Shown here: positions 17,113 to 22,835 of the stretch, in pieces
Layout: every line of letters begins with the position of its first letter
Numbering within the stretch: the first letter of the stretch is position 1
NCBI RefSeq assembly: GCF_001457415.1
Contig: NZ_LN881720.1
Location: forward strand, 252,305 to 316,304
DNA from: Gorillibacterium timonense
Lineage (GTDB): Bacteria > Bacillota > Bacilli > Paenibacillales > NBRC-103111
Direction of reading: 5' to 3'
Length of the DNA stretch: 64,000 bases
Notes under the pieces: model-generated
Databases searched by the model: none
Told to the model about the DNA's origin: nothing
The model's input: the letters and a program-made list of their open reading frames with translations, nothing else
Made by a program: the position numbers and the translations under genes

Positions 17113-17439
17113 ATGAAGGATATTTTTCTTCAATTGGAACAGATTGAGGACAAGATGGGCTTAACCTACGCCGACCTCGGCGTGCTGAAGCAGAAGATTG
17201 TCGCTCTCCTGGAGGAGAACCAGCGTCTTCAACACGAGAACCAACAGCTTCGCGATCTGCTGAAGAACGGTGAGCTGCCGATACAGACAGCGGAAGACCC
17301 GGAAGCTCCGGGGACCGGGGAAGGCTTCGATAATCTATTGCGTTTATATAATGAAGGGTTTCACATCTGCAATGTGTACTACGGGCACCTTCGCACCGAG
17401 GGAGACTGCCTGTTTTGCCTCTCGTTCCTGAACAAATAA
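17113..17439 (+). CDS. yabA: Replication initiation control protein YabA
   Basis: 108 aa from ATG 17113; this start is preferred to GTG 17101 because TTGAGGTGA lies about 9 nt upstream of it. An N-terminal coiled coil (about residues 1-60) and a C-terminal zinc-binding part [26 protein letters not shown] match YabA, which binds DnaA and DnaN to limit re-initiation of replication. Last gene of the tmk operon; a terminator follows at 17610. Confidence 0.93.
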
Positions 17440-17460
17440 GTTTGGGAACCGGTGGAACAA

Positions 17461-17553
17461 GTACGCCGTCAGCCCTAATCGTGTGGATATGAATCCTCGT
17501 CAATGGGTATGAGAAGATGTGCGGAGACCGCGGTTTTTAAGCTGACAGCGTAC
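17461..17553 (+). mobile_element. 93-bp MITE-like inverted-repeat element, copy 1
   Basis: Begins GTACGCCGTCAGC and ends GCTGACAGCGTAC, a 13-bp terminal inverted repeat with one mismatch. The whole 93-bp block recurs in reverse orientation at 22523-22615 with about 10 differences by eye. It lies just behind yabA and ahead of that operon's terminator. It has no coding capacity. No clear target duplication is visible. Confidence 0.75.
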
Positions 17554-17609
17554 AAGCGGCAGAACCGGCGCTCCTGCCGGCAGCGGGTGACCGCTCAGAA
17601 CGGGATGCT

Positions 17610-17646
17610 AAGCCGCAGGGACAAGAGTCCCTGCGGCTTTTTTTGG
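17610..17646 (+). terminator. Terminator of the tmk-yabA operon
   Basis: Perfect stem AAGCCGCAGGGAC / GTCCCTGCGGCTT with loop AAGA and a T-run. Confidence 0.9.
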
Positions 17647-17679
17647 AAAATGCGGAAAGAGGAACGATGGGGGTAAGCT

Positions 17680-18480
17680 ATGGGACAGGACAGGGAATGG
17701 TTGCTTCCCGGTGAACGAATCGACGATCTGCTGCGCAACGACCTGAAGATCATTCAGAGCGGCGAAGTGTTTTCCTTTTCGATGGATGCGGTGCTGCTGG
17801 CGCATTTTTGCTCGGTTCCGGCGAAAGGACGGATTATCGATCTGTGTACGGGCAACGGTGTGGTGCCGATCCTGCTCACGGCGCGGACGAAGGCCCCCGT
17901 GTGGGGCGTGGAGATTCAAGAGCGCCTTGCCGAGATGGCGGAGCGCAGCGTCAGCTTGAACGGGCTGGAGGAGCGGGTGACCCTCTCGCGGATGGACCTG
18001 AAGGAGGCGCATCTGGCCTTCGGCCATGGCGGGTTTGACCTCGTGACCGTCAATCCACCTTATCTGCCCGCTCATGCAGGCGAACCGAACGGCAACCCGC
18101 ATTTCGCCGCGGCCCGTCACGAGATTCATTGCACGCTGGAGGATGTCGTCGCGGCTTCGGCAAAGCTTGTGAAGGCGGGAGGCAAGGTGGCCATGGTGCA
18201 TCGGCCTTCGCGGCTCGCGGATATCTTGATTCTCTTCCGCCAGTATCGGCTGGAACCGAAAAGGGTGCGCTTCGTTCATCCCCGAGCGGGAGAAGAAGCG
18301 AATATGGTGCTGATCGAAGCGATCAAGGATGGCGGCCCCGAGATTCGGCTGCTGCCTCCCTTGATCGTGTACCAGGAGGATGGCCGTTATTGTCCGGAGC
18401 TGATGAAGATTTATTACGAGCCTCTGGGCGCAGCCAGCGTAGACGAGAGACATGTGGATAATGGAGAGGGCGCGCAATGA
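17680..18480 (+). CDS. yabB: TrmN-like tRNA (adenine-N6) methyltransferase (YabB)
   Basis: 266 aa SAM-dependent methyltransferase: motif I IIDLCTGNGVVPILL near 50-64 and the catalytic NPPYLP near 127-132, as in TrmN6 enzymes that methylate adenine 37 of tRNA1(Val). FSMDAVLLAHF near the start is also family-typical. GGGGGTAAGCT precedes ATG 17680. Its stop overlaps rsmI by 4 nt (ATGA), so the two are coupled. In B. subtilis yazA lies between them; it is absent here. Confidence 0.9.
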   Translation: MGQDREWLLPGERIDDLLRNDLKIIQSGEVFSFSMDAVLLAHFCSVPAKGRIIDLCTGNGVVPILLTARTKAPVWGVEIQERLAEMAERSVSLNGLEERVTLSRMDLKEAHLAFGHGGFDLVTVNPPYLPAHAGEPNGNPHFAAARHEIHCTLEDVVAASAKLVKAGGKVAMVHRPSRLADILILFRQYRLEPKRVRFVHPRAGEEANMVLIEAIKDGGPEIRLLPPLIVYQEDGRYCPELMKIYYEPLGAASVDERHVDNGEGAQ

Positions 18481-19364
18481 ACATTCAAAAAAGCTTTCAA
18501 GCGGAGCGCAGCACCGGGACGCTGTACTTGATCGGAACGCCGATCGGCAATCTGGAGGACATGACCTTCCGCGCCGTGCGGCTGTTGAAGGAAGCGGACC
18601 TGATCGCAGCCGAGGACACGCGGCAGACGCGGAAGCTGCTGACGCATTTTGAAATCGGCGGGCGCTTGGTCAGCTACCACGAGCACAACAAGGAGGCGAG
18701 TGGCCGGGAGCTGCTGCGGCTGATGGAGGAAGGGCAGACGATTGCGCTCGTCTCGGACGCCGGAATGCCGGCGATCTCCGATCCGGGCGCAGATCTCGCC
18801 CGTGGAGCCATCGAGCGGGGGATTCCGGTGGTACCGGTTCCCGGAGCCAATGCGGCGTTGTCCGCGCTCGTCATGTCCGGGCTGCCGACGGAGCGGTTCC
18901 TCTTCTGCGGCTTCCTGCCGCGCGAGAAGAAGAAGCGTTCCGACGAATTGCTTGGGCTCAGAAGCATCGCTGCCACGCTGCTCTTCTATGAATCGCCGCA
19001 TCGGGTGGCGAAGACGGTGGAGGCGATGCTGGAGGCTTTGGGGGACCGGGAGGCCGTGCTCGTGCGGGAGCTGACCAAGCGGCATGAGGAAGCGGTGCGC
19101 GGGACGCTCAGCGAGCTGCTGAAGCATCTGGAGGAGCATCCTCCTCTCGGCGAATATGTCCTCGCGGTCACGGGGGCGAATGCGGCCGACGTTTCGGGGT
19201 CGGGAGCCGCCGACGGCGGAGACGAACCGTGGTGGAGCGGACTGAGCGCCATCGACCATGTCCAGCACTACCTGAATGCGGGAGAGGACCGCAAGGCGGC
19301 TATGAAAAAAGCGGCCGCTGACCGGGGCGTATCAAAGCGCGATATCTACCAGGAGCTGCTGTAG
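18477..19364 (+). CDS. rsmI: 16S rRNA (cytidine1402-2'-O)-methyltransferase RsmI
   Basis: 295 aa tetrapyrrole-methylase-fold enzyme: GTLYLIGTPIGNLEDMTFRA near 13-32, AAEDTRQTRKLL near 43-54, SDAGMPAISDPG near 95-106 and FLPREKKKR. Methylates the ribose of C1402 in the decoding centre. Overlaps yabB by the ATGA junction. The family's C-terminal helical region runs to residue 295, so it looks complete. Confidence 0.95.
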   Translation: MNIQKSFQAERSTGTLYLIGTPIGNLEDMTFRAVRLLKEADLIAAEDTRQTRKLLTHFEIGGRLVSYHEHNKEASGRELLRLMEEGQTIALVSDAGMPAISDPGADLARGAIERGIPVVPVPGANAALSALVMSGLPTERFLFCGFLPREKKKRSDELLGLRSIAATLLFYESPHRVAKTVEAMLEALGDREAVLVRELTKRHEEAVRGTLSELLKHLEEHPPLGEYVLAVTGANAADVSGSGAADGGDEPWWSGLSAIDHVQHYLNAGEDRKAAMKKAAADRGVSKRDIYQELL

Positions 19365-19556
19365 CAAGCCTGGTGATCGCGCTGCATGATCGAGAGCTCT
19401 GGCGATCGATTATCTTCGAGTGACCGAGGCGCCTACATTATATAGTAGAAACTCGGTTAATTGAGCAATTGGCGAGTAGAGAAAGCGGGGGACGGAGGGT
19501 TGGTGGCAGCAGATGGAGTAGGTACGCGCTGAACCGACCGTCCTGCCGAATCGGTA

Positions 19557-19607
19557 CAAAAAAAGGTCCCCGATTTGAGCGGCTGCCGTTCCGCTCAAAT
19601 CGGGGAC
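19557..19607 (-). terminator. Terminator of abrB
   Basis: Perfect 17-bp stem (GTCCCCGATTTGAGCGG and its complement) with an 8-nt loop; read on the minus strand it is followed by CCTTTTTTTT. Apart from this I see nothing clear in the 303-bp gap 19365-19667. Confidence 0.88.
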
Positions 19608-19667
19608 AAGGAGTATGAAAAAGGTTATAAATAACAATGGGATCTCTTTCATTATACTATAGCTTGA

Positions 19668-19922
19668 TTATTTTGTCACTGGCTCCGGCATATCTTGAAT
19701 GCAGTTGTTGCAGACGATTTTTCCTTTGAAGTACGTGACGTTCTCCGCGTTGCCACAGAAGATACAGGCCGGTTCATACTTTTTGAGCATGATGCGCTCG
19801 CCGTCGACATAGATTTCGAGAGCGTCCTTCTCACCGATTCCAAGCGTGCGGCGCAGTTCGATGGGGATGACGACACGACCCAGCTCGTCGACTTTTCTAA
19901 CAATCCCTGTTGATTTCATCAT
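19668..19922 (-). CDS. abrB: Transition-state regulator AbrB with a two-CxxC C-terminal tail
   Basis: 84 aa. Residues 1-52 are nearly identical to AbrB DNA-binding domains (MKSTGIVRKVDELGRVVIP(I)ELRRTLGI). In place of the B. subtilis C-terminal multimerisation half there is a short tail with CIFC near 55-58 and CNNC near 73-76, plausibly a zinc knuckle resembling that of Gin. AbrB represses many post-exponential genes. GGAGGG precedes the tandem ATGs at 19922 and 19919. Location beside rsmI and opposite orientation match B. subtilis. Confidence 0.92.
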   Translation of the reverse strand: MMKSTGIVRKVDELGRVVIPIELRRTLGIGEKDALEIYVDGERIMLKKYEPACIFCGNAENVTYFKGKIVCNNCIQDMPEPVTK

Positions 19923-20215
19923 CGTTATTATCCCTCCGTGTATATGTATTCTTGCCTAATCGCCATAATTCGACAGGAAACTCTCAATATGATACCAACC
20001 ATTCCCATAATAGTCAATAGAGAAAATTGGGTTATTGGGCACTGAAATCGAAAAAAGTTCATTTTTTCTAGAAAAAACATAGAAAAGACAACAGTTTTCT
20101 TCAAAAAGAGCCGGAATAGCCGCTCGGATGAGAAAAAGAAATGGCAATCGCAATGTGACAGCATTCGACATATGGCGTAAAAATCGCTGTCGAAATCGAG
20201 AGGAGATGGTGACGA

Positions 20216-21505
20216 ATGGCAAGGCTGCAGGAAGAAAAAGTGTTTAAAGATCCCGTCCATCGGTATATTTATGTACAGGACACCCTCATCTGGGACCTCA
20301 TCAATAGCCGGGAATTTCAGAGACTGCGGAGGATTCGACAGCTGGGTACCTCTTATCTAACCTTTCATGGAGCCGAGCACAGTCGATTCTCCCATTCGCT
20401 CGGAGTCTACGAGATTGTCCGGCGCATTCTCTCGCAGTTTGAACGCAGCGGCTTCGGCGACCTTAGCGAAGAGGAGCGGCTTGTCTGCTTGTGCGCGGCA
20501 CTGCTGCATGATGTGGGGCATGCTCCTTTTTCGCATTCGATGGAAAAAATATTTGGGGAGCATCATGAAGCCTGGTCCTGCCGCATCATCCTCGGGGATA
20601 CGGAGATTCATCAAATCTTGAGTCGAGTTGCGGAGGGCTTCCCCGAGCAGGTGGCCGGAGTGATTTGCAAAACCCATCCAAACCCTGTTGCGATCAGCCT
20701 GATCGCCAGCCAGCTCGATGCGGACCGGATGGATTACCTGCTTCGGGACGCGTACTGCACCGGAGTCAACTACGGAACGTTCGATCTCGACCGGATACTT
20801 CGTGTTTTGCGCCCCTTGAAGTCGGGAGTTGTGGTGAAGGAGAGCGGCATGCATGCCGTAGAGGATTACCTGATGTCGCGGTACCAGATGTATTGGCAAA
20901 TTTATTTTCACCCGGTTACCCGCAGCGCCGAGATCGTCCTCACCAAGATTCTCAATCGGGCGAAGACGCTGTATGAGGACGGATATGCCTTTGCCTTTAT
21001 GGTGGAACCGATTCGCAGGCTGCTTGAGGGAAAGCTCAGCGTCGAGGATTACCTCCGGTTGGATGAAGCGTTAATGCAGGCCGCTTTTTCTCAGTGGATG
21101 GAGGAAAAGGACCCGATTCTTGCCGATTTGTGCGAGAGGTTCTTAAACCGCAGGCTGTTCCGCTACGTTCCCGCCGAGGACATCTCCGGGTTTCTGTTCG
21201 AGCAGCTTCGCGCCGAGCTCGCCGCCATCGGTTGGGACCCGGATTATTACCTGGAGATCGACTTCCCTTCCGATTTGCCGTATGATGTGTACCGTCCAGG
21301 GCAGGAGGACGAGAAGCGGCCGATCCTTCTGCTCGGCCCCGATGGGGAGTTGGAGGAGATCTCCCGCCGTTCGGAGATCGTTCGTTCGATCAGCGGCATT
21401 CATTCCGGGCAAAACCAGCTCTACTACCCGGCGGAGCTGCTCCAGGACAAGCGGCTTCCGGATGGGGTTCGGAAGATTCTGGTGAACGGAATCCGCAAGT
21501 CCTGA
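20216..21505 (+). CDS. HD-domain phosphohydrolase, YwfO type
   Basis: 429 aa. EKVFKDPVHRYIYVQDTLIWDLI and EFQRLRRIRQLGTSYLTFHGAEHSRFSHSLGVYEIVRRIL are close to B. subtilis YwfO (about 433 aa). Metal-site motifs are H in HSRFSHS, HD in LLHDVGHAPFSHSME and the distal D in SQLDADRMDYLLRD. Related enzymes hydrolyse dNTPs or nucleotide-like compounds; the substrate is not known here. GAGGAGATGGTGACGA precedes ATG 20216. It stands where B. subtilis has metG. The 293-bp gap upstream (19923-20215) should carry the abrB promoter. Confidence 0.9.
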   Translation: MARLQEEKVFKDPVHRYIYVQDTLIWDLINSREFQRLRRIRQLGTSYLTFHGAEHSRFSHSLGVYEIVRRILSQFERSGFGDLSEEERLVCLCAALLHDVGHAPFSHSMEKIFGEHHEAWSCRIILGDTEIHQILSRVAEGFPEQVAGVICKTHPNPVAISLIASQLDADRMDYLLRDAYCTGVNYGTFDLDRILRVLRPLKSGVVVKESGMHAVEDYLMSRYQMYWQIYFHPVTRSAEIVLTKILNRAKTLYEDGYAFAFMVEPIRRLLEGKLSVEDYLRLDEALMQAAFSQWMEEKDPILADLCERFLNRRLFRYVPAEDISGFLFEQLRAELAAIGWDPDYYLEIDFPSDLPYDVYRPGQEDEKRPILLLGPDGELEEISRRSEIVRSISGIHSGQNQLYYPAELLQDKRLPDGVRKILVNGIRKS

Positions 21506-21702
21506 AGCGCGATCTGGGACAAAGACGGACGGACTGGATGTATAAAAATTGCTGAGCGACTGGACAGGCTGTATTCGGATGACATCGGTTCAGGCCATCG
21601 CATGGAACGGGCTATCGGTGCGAATATTGATTGTGACCATTCAAAAATCACCATTCCAAAACCGATCCCGGTCCCATGAGGCTCATCCGTGTAACGGTTT
21701 AA

Positions 21703-21728
21703 CGAGGGCGTGTTTGGCAAACCTGCTC
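21703..21728. repeat. Degenerate palindromic repeat, copy C
   Basis: GGGCGTGTTTGGCAAACCTGCTC resembles the palindrome at 2078 and 22615 but with an inserted G and a changed arm. It lies just upstream of the tatD ribosome-binding site. The rest of the 250-bp gap 21506-21755 shows nothing else clear. Confidence 0.35.
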
Positions 21729-21755
21729 AAGAGAGATGACAAAGGAGACGTACCT

Positions 21756-22523
21756 ATGCTAACGGATTCGCATGCGCATCTGAACGCCCCTGAATTTGAC
21801 GAGGACCGGGAAGAAACGATTGCCCGGGCTAGAGAGGCGGGAGTGACGCGCATCGTCAATATCGGCTTTAACCGCGAGACCATCCCGACTTCTCTGAAGC
21901 TGGCGGAGGCGTATGATTTTATTTGGACGGCGGTCGGCTGGCATCCCCAGGATGCCAAGGACATGCTGCCGGAGGATCTCGATTGGATCGAGGAGCTGTG
22001 CAAGCACGAGAAGGTGGTCGCCATCGGAGAGATCGGGCTCGACTACTACTGGGATACCTCACCTAAAGAAGTGCAAGATCGGGTGTTTCGCGAGCAGATC
22101 CGCTTGGCCCGCAAGGTGGGCAAGCCGATCATCATTCATGACCGCGACGCCCATCACGATGTGGTGGAGACGCTGAAGCAGGAAAAAGCCGCCGAGGTCG
22201 GCGGCATCATGCACTGCTTCTCGGGAAGCTGGGAGACGGCGAAGCTGTGCTTGGACATGAACTTCTACATCTCCTTCGGCGGGCCGGTGACCTTCAAGAA
22301 TGCCCGGCAGCCGAAGGAGGTTCTGGCGCAGGTGCCGCTCGACCGTCTCCTCCTGGAGACGGACTCGCCGTACCTGACGCCGCATCCATTTCGCGGCAAG
22401 CGCAATGAATCAGCGCATGTGCGGCTCGTCGCCGAAGCCGCCGCCGAAATCAAGGGCTTGCCGGTGGAAGAGATCGCGCGGATCACGACGGAGAACGCCA
22501 TCCGCCTCCTCGGCATCAACTAG
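21756..22523 (+). CDS. tatD: TatD-family metal-dependent DNase
   Basis: 255 aa from ATG 21756, which follows AAAGGAGACGTACCT; the longer open frame upstream is not supported. Metal ligands: DSHAHLN at 3-9, GEIGLDYY near 91-98, IIHDRDAHHD, MHCFSG and ETDSPYLTPHPFRGKRNE. TatD proteins are 3'-5' exonucleases or hydrolases on DNA ends. The final base of its TAG stop is the first base of the second 93-bp repeat, so that element landed exactly at the gene end. Confidence 0.93.
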   Translation: MLTDSHAHLNAPEFDEDREETIARAREAGVTRIVNIGFNRETIPTSLKLAEAYDFIWTAVGWHPQDAKDMLPEDLDWIEELCKHEKVVAIGEIGLDYYWDTSPKEVQDRVFREQIRLARKVGKPIIIHDRDAHHDVVETLKQEKAAEVGGIMHCFSGSWETAKLCLDMNFYISFGGPVTFKNARQPKEVLAQVPLDRLLLETDSPYLTPHPFRGKRNESAHVRLVAEAAAEIKGLPVEEIARITTENAIRLLGIN

Positions 22524-22615
22524 TACGCTGTCAGCTTAAAAACCATGTTCTCCGCACAACTTCCCATACCTATTGACGCCGATTCATATCGACACGATTA
22601 GGGCTGACAGCGTAC
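22523..22615 (-). mobile_element. 93-bp MITE-like element, copy 2 (inverted)
   Basis: Ends GTACGCTGTCAGC and GCTGACAGCGTAC are a perfect 13-bp inverted repeat; with flanking bases CTA/TAG the symmetry grows to 16 bp. Read on the minus strand it aligns without gaps to 17461-17553 with about 10 mismatches. It starts in the tatD stop codon and touches the palindrome at 22615. Confidence 0.75.
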
Positions 22616-22642
22616 TAGAGCGTGTTTGCAAACACGCTCTAG
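22615..22642. repeat. Palindromic repeat, copy B (28-bp perfect palindrome)
   Basis: Each half reads CTAGAGCGTGTTTG; the core recurs at 2078-2106. It directly adjoins the right end of the 93-bp element, sharing its last C. The remaining part of the gap up to 22835 holds a minus-strand terminator and a very GC-rich stretch of GCCGC-type runs (22750-22830). Confidence 0.7.
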
Positions 22643-22689
22643 CCGAGAAGAGGCGATGCGGCGGCTGTGGAATTTGGCCGCGCGAGCAA

Positions 22690-22741
22690 ACAAAACAAAT
22701 CCCCCCTGCTGCACTCTCCCGAGGCAGCAGGGGGGATTTGT
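22690..22741 (-). terminator. Terminator behind the ecs remnant
   Basis: Perfect 18-bp stem (ACAAATCCCCCCTGCTGC and complement); on the minus strand it is followed by TTTGTTTG. Confidence 0.8.
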
Positions 22742-22835
22742 CGGTTGTGGCGCCGCGCCGCGCCGCGTGGTGTGTGCGGGCGCTATGCCGCGACGCGGCG
22801 GCGGAACGCTACGCGGCGGCGCGTTCGCTGCGCGT

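Follow-up and report, generated by a model that had tools for sequence, protein, structure and literature searches.

By description, the closest parallel to the repeat considered here is RUP of Streptococcus pneumoniae, which is found together with IS630-Spn1: the accessible portions of the source articles give it as a 107-bp intergenic element with terminal inverted repeats (TIRs) and TA termini, present in 108-110 copies in one genome, whose ends link it to an IS630 element and which is almost absent beyond close relatives (PMC2229807, PMC3049150). Correia/NEMIS repeats of Neisseria are likewise short, repeated and bounded by TIRs with TA ends, but they have a 24-bp TIR, a length of about 107 or 155 bp and another host, in so far as they are covered by the available part of the description (PMC2229807). 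For ISY100, the accessible part of PMC2170065 records two insertions that duplicated AA/TT, and its reference list names a paper on the preference of IS630 for TA in CTAG. Here, we describe a 93-bp repeat, two inverted copies of which lie in a 64,000-nucleotide stretch of the genome of Gorillibacterium timonense (the window; assembly GCF_001457415.1, contig NZ_LN881720.1, positions 252,305 to 316,304). The two blocks are, very probably, copies of a family of non-autonomous miniature inverted-repeat transposable elements (MITEs) of the IS630 group, comprising an internally deleted derivative that would be moved in trans. Our confidence in the class assignment is high, whereas it is low as to which transposase moved the family; the class is an ordinary one, and the family itself seems to be new.

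The MITE shares with RUP, as the latter is portrayed in the portions at hand, its shortness, a hundred or more copies in one genome, intergenic placing, TIRs, TA at the termini and IS630-linked ends. The TIRs of RUP resemble those of its presumed helper, however, whereas here the sole IS630 element found in the genome has other tips (GTAGCTCTTCAATTC, as against GTACGCTGTCARC for the MITE), and a matching parent was not found. With IS630/ISY100, the MITE has in common the duplication of TA and, apparently, at the first window copy, a duplication of AA like that in the two ISY100 insertions (PMC2170065, in part); it differs in carrying no transposase gene. Since the site, the duplication and the ends of the MITE are those of IS630, we place it in that group.

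A repeat family within one genome

The window copies form the sole long inverted pair in the region (17460-17556 and 22520-22616; 97 nt, 89% complementary). The preliminary description, made from the sequence of the window, had put the difference between the 93-bp blocks at about 10 mismatches and the TIRs at 13 bp: exactly 10 positions differ, and repeats of that length are perfect in copy 2 and have one mismatch in copy 1. In an unfiltered model search, the two copies scored E-values of 1.2e-30 and 1.7e-32, respectively, whereas the next among the 14 listed matches had E 0.95, and nothing else in the window exceeded 5.6 bits; the pair is, therefore, not due to chance.

The search model, which is sequence-only and was built from 30 copies, gave 149 matches with E ≤ 1 in the 5.26-Mb genome (at least 40 were found by BLAST); 150 of 1516 first-look candidates were scored, so that the copy counts are lower bounds and the E-values rough. 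The seven weakest matches (E above 0.007) were dropped and 142 carried on, five of which were tandem units that collapsed onto a neighbour, leaving about 137 copies, a number that counts each array once or less than fully. At least 9 of the 13 TIR bases are retained at both tips in 83 copies, and these full copies underlie the flank and context counts given below, from which the 54 copies without a tip were excluded. Subfamilies are distinguished by TIRs ending in ...TCAGC, ...TCAAC and ...TTTCAAC. Moreover, at C4:362253/C5:263742 and at C3:191750/C7:1192575, the members of a pair match over all 93 bp although their flanks are unrelated, and tandem head-to-tail copies occur at C6:278814, C5:514285, C5:527868 and C4:476363. 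In the two arrays that we inspected (L164, 1500-1740, and L156, 1500-1690), the units are identical or nearly so, with periods of 95 and 94 bases and joints of two and three bases, respectively. When longer elements were sought among the 54 tip-lacking copies, stretches of more than 100 bp were shared only between overlapping loci of one place. A length of 93 bp, the lack of a transposase gene (the longest frame has about 27 codons), 13-bp TIRs and 137 copies all agree with what is meant by a MITE. The whole-genome search for further copies that the preliminary description had proposed thus yielded about 137, and its suggestion of a MITE is borne out by this copy number, the TIRs, the 2-bp flanks at CTAG, the identical copies at unrelated sites and the IS630-type ends.

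The search for copies in relatives returned none: there was no BLAST match in 58 relatives, no model match in the 391 other genomes of the order (under stricter filters, with 10 candidates scored per genome), no exact 21-mer match in the GTDB species set and viral contigs, and no match in the plasmids and phages searched; no other member of the host genus appeared in the genome sets covered. When 103 other genomes of the host's family were searched with an exact 15-mer, two isolated matches turned up, both chance-like; they lie in coding sequence (which we take to be Fic-like) and have no suitable partner. We did not find the family described in the open-licence literature, supplements excepted. 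The present data add a large, probably IS630-derived MITE family with several subfamilies, seen in one genome among those searched and with no matching helper found, which is useful for annotation of the host genus and leaves the general picture unchanged.

Target sites

The commonest target is C-TA-G, with TA apparently duplicated. TA adjoins the left tip in 47 of the 83 full copies, the right tip in 56 and both in 38, against a background TA frequency of 0.032; the fuller CTA...TAG arrangement is present in 27, and the bases outside the dinucleotides are C in 65 copies and G in 69. This pattern fits the 2-bp duplication, of TA within CTAG, that characterizes IS630, with window copy 1 having AA. 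The flank bias is not mirror-symmetric: T occupies the fifth base on the right in 46/83 copies, and A the sixth base on the left in just 3/83.

As judged by our own codon-usage caller rather than by annotation, 73 of the 83 copies are intergenic, 8 overlap the end of a gene and 2 lie inside a called open reading frame; in nine cases, a single base belongs both to the copy and to a called stop codon. Copies sit on stop codons because CTAG itself carries TAG, which explains how such repeats can come to occupy these positions; the overall pattern would reflect this property together with selection against insertions in genes.

Relationship to the ends of IS630 elements

The resident IS630 element, with the TIR GTAGCTCTTCAATTC, is 1218 bp long, and its three copies show no more than one base difference. 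It encodes the sole DDE_3 transposase that the genome search found (DDE_3 of Pfam, 88.1 bits with a cut-off of 28.6; NF033545, the NCBIfam model for IS630, 125 bits with a cut-off of 100). In all three copies, the gene is split over two frames (L062, 918-1406 and 1453-2079) near a run of seven A, and programmed frameshifting may be involved. In ungapped alignment with the resident element, the MITE agrees at 19 of 31 positions on the left and 16 of 31 on the right (18 and 18 for the second subfamily). Both share, at the same offsets, the tip GTA, TCA at positions 9-11, the subterminal CTAAT and CCACGGTTT, but bases 4-8 of the TIR all differ. Leaving the GTA tip aside, the probability of such agreement at random is 0.0006-0.015 per end over the 31 positions. 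At the right end, the MITE reads PRFLS-stop and the transposase PRFKN-stop, in both cases with the TGA placed 8 nt before the tip. Because the right end matches the last codons and the stop of IS630 transposases, the MITE is probably an internally deleted IS630 derivative.

The comparison can be extended to other genomes, since IS630 occurs at E ≤ 1e-30 in 33 of 392 genomes of the order, the host included. From the species set, the best 80 of 581 named IS630 loci were retained. In all, 110 loci were examined, including that of the host, and a TIR was detectable in 82. Of these, 72 are flanked by CTA...TAG (not an unbiased rate, as the TIR and profile searches required TA at both ends and favoured or required CTA/TAG), 33 begin with GTAC and 20 with GTAG. 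A profile was drawn from 70 of these elements, the host genome excluded, and used to score the roughly 3,930 window 20-mers that come directly after a TA. Both ends of copy 2 took ranks 1 and 2, and did so with either profile; copy 1, with its AA flanks, falls outside a scan of this kind. The ends of the MITE thus match those of IS630 elements, more weakly so without the GTAC tip.

Several observations weigh against this interpretation. In 45 of the 83 copies, TA is missing from at least one side, and an identical non-TA dinucleotide stands at both ends in 8 of the 45, where shuffling gives a mean of 6.4 (P 0.29; single TAs that happen to be paired inflate this null). Seven of these eight read C-NN...NN-G, including window copy 1 (C-AA...AA-G), and an inverted dinucleotide match was seen in 1/45; non-TA duplications are accordingly suggestive only. 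Duplication of the target as such would follow from the flank pattern, no empty site having been shown. For the ends, the register of the comparison with the resident IS630 was picked after inspection of the alignment, and the random probabilities rise to 0.005-0.03 over 37 positions. Moreover, once the first four bases (GTAC) are removed from the profile, the left and right ends of the main consensus are matched or outscored by 17 and 16 of 3,929 window sites, respectively, and the ends of the second subfamily by 5 and 32; it is because of this weakening that we have lowered our confidence in the interpretation, by the slightest of steps.

The preliminary description had suggested seeking a full-length transposon that shares the ends of the MITE, but what came to light were related IS630 elements whose tips differ. 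The surroundings of the resident transposases contained no full-length element bounded by GTACGCTGTCARC, none emerged from an exact 15-mer search of the 103 other genomes of the host's family, and none was among the best 80 of the 581 named IS630 loci. The exact tip of the MITE forms the element end at 0/110 IS630 loci, if MITEs beside the resident IS630 are discounted; its exact 10-mers occur at the host's own locus, in these neighbouring MITEs, and once in L316, where TA does not precede them. A lone perfect tip at C7:103444, missed by the model search, was rejected as a parent, the surrounding 6 kb containing neither a second tip nor a transposase frame. This tip (L220 2945) stands behind CTA and runs into a hairpin, another inverted repeat (CCCTTCAACTC...GAGTTGAAGG), in place of the MITE interior. 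It comes from the first 100 of 120 places, and further lone tips are possible.

Taken with these reservations, the most plausible course of events would be as follows. An IS630-family insertion sequence would have lost its interior, leaving a 93-bp MITE that kept the left end, the last codons and the right end. An IS630-type transposase, acting in trans, would then have excised the MITE at its GTAC tips and inserted it at C-NN-G targets, in most cases CTAG, with duplication of the two middle bases (TA, or AA at window copy 1). Copies that survived would be mostly those between genes or on stop codons, CTAG being able to supply the TAG, and after insertion they would presumably drift neutrally.

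Features of the window copies

The locations of the two copies and their presumed target duplications are given in Table 1. Both lie directly behind genes, as had been stated, and the identities proposed for these genes (yabA and tatD) agree with the model matches: copy 1 starts 21 bp past the stop of a YabA-like gene, the product of which matches YabA models (best score 127.3 bits, just below the cut-off of 130), and copy 2 opens on the last base, G, of the TAG that ends a gene of the TatD family (312.4 bits, against a cut-off of 206), so that the second copy does indeed begin in a stop codon.

Table 1. Coordinates of the MITE copies, their ends and flanking dinucleotides in the window
Feature	Coordinates	Strand	Remarks
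MITE copy 1	17461..17553	+	93 bp; model search 101.5 bits
MITE copy 2	22523..22615	-	93 bp, inverted relative to copy 1; model search 107.4 bits
Copy 1, left TIR	17461..17473	+	GTACGCCGTCAGC; one mismatch
Copy 1, right TIR	17541..17553	-	GTACGCTGTCAGC (minus-strand reading)
Copy 2, TIR	22523..22535	+	perfect
Copy 2, TIR	22603..22615	-	perfect
AA, left of copy 1	17459..17460		left half of presumed 2-bp target duplication (site C-AA-G)
AA, right of copy 1	17554..17555		right half of presumed 2-bp target duplication
TA, left of copy 2	22521..22522		presumed target duplication; bases 1-2 of the TAG stop of the TatD-family gene (22521-22523)
TA, right of copy 2	22616..22617		presumed target duplication

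Candidate helper and nesting at CTAG edges

Within the IS630 interpretation, the MITE may have been mobilized by the resident IS630, despite its unlike tips, and not by a lost parent; we regard this as a tentative proposal that is somewhat more doubtful than not. The resident element supplies the sole DDE_3 transposase that the genome search found and is itself present in three near-identical 1218-bp copies, and the identical MITE pairs point to recent spread. The GTA, TCA, CTAAT and CCACGGTTT matches at common offsets also favour it, but they are offset by the complete disagreement at TIR bases 4-8, and RUP, the best-studied parallel, is reported in the accessible passages to resemble the TIRs of its helper (PMC2229807, PMC3049150). 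Additionally, each of the three resident IS630 copies adjoins a MITE through a shared CTAG, which is the case at four of the six edges. Extrapolation from the window gives about 4,277 CTAG sites in the genome; as 79 stand at the edges of the 83 full copies, the chance of finding 3/3 at MITE edges is of the order of 6e-6, a figure that is rough and post hoc; CTAG targeting alone can, however, explain the neighbourhood.

Such targeting has a particular consequence: because both the MITE and IS630 begin with G and end with C, insertion into CTAG leaves a CTAG at each edge. The family shows elements nesting at one another's CTAG edges. It would be a rather improbable extension that the MITEs are self-renewing landing pads, with CTAG rebuilt at both edges, that draw in further elements, and that a single IS630 transposase moves families whose tips differ.

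Another repeat flanked by CTAG, the ends of which are GAGCGTGTTTGC, was noticed at 22615-22642 and 2077-2104 of the window, where it is a 22-bp palindrome (perfect at 22615, near-perfect at 2077) with CTA/CTG on one side and TAG on the other; at other places in the genome, it also takes forms of 53, 86 and 133-136 bp, flanks included. Like the MITE and IS630, it begins with G and ends with C and so leaves CTAG at each edge. At 22615, the repeat and MITE copy 2 have one CTAG in common, and five other MITE copies seem to adjoin edges of this repeat.

Alternative functions of the interior

Single copies might have acquired a role in weak transcription termination or in the stabilization of mRNA 3' ends, which we consider unlikely. 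Both window copies stand behind genes, and copy 1 holds a terminator-like stem followed by GTTTTTAA (17520-17532), but the stem is intact in only 3 of 30 aligned copies, and a stronger terminator-like site follows copy 1 at 17610-17639 (the scan gave 10 sites, compared with 5.7 expected in shuffles). The nine copies that share a base with a called stop codon might suggest the same role; the stop-codon positions follow from CTAG targeting, however. The site at 17610-17639, a strong terminator-like stem with a T run, lies about 57 bp 3' of MITE copy 1.

The preliminary description had also entertained a structured RNA or a protein-binding site in the interior, and had recommended RNA folding. 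That selection maintains the element at gene ends as a conserved regulatory RNA, a repeated attenuator or a protein-binding element is very improbable on the results obtained. A strong hairpin is indeed predicted from the TIRs (z -2.7 to -5.4 over four strands), but RNAalifold over 30 copies returned a consensus fold with negligible covariation: the covariation term is -0.47 kcal/mol, and both-sided changes occur at 2 of 17 predicted pairs. The arms of the TIR changed jointly between subfamilies (TCAGC/TCAAC), which is also expected of transposon ends. Although 73/83 copies are intergenic, as might be wished of a regulator, decay is near-even along the element with slight protection of the ends: the tree-corrected changes per column, from the 80 of 83 copies with lengths of 88-96, have a mean of 7.2 and a variance of 10.0, with 6.0 for the TIR and 7.6 for the interior. 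That the interior decays at much the same rate as the other columns, with hardly any covariation, argues against a functional RNA, and the near-even spread of changes likewise lends no support to a protein-binding site. Furthermore, a search of Rfam with window positions 17300-22800 gave four matches (E 1.7-3.5), all far below gathering scores and none over the copies, and the failure to find the element in the 391 other genomes of the order, with 10 candidates scored in each, points the same way.

Finally, that the open frame across the MITE encodes a small peptide is scarcely credible: the consensus sequences of the two main subfamilies both contain an open 27-codon frame ending in FLS-stop, but it is open in only 22 of 51 full 93-bp copies, the changes per codon position (7.1, 8.4 and 7.3) show no third-position excess, and where one subfamily has ATG the other has ACG. 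Descent from the C-terminal part of the transposase explains the frame.

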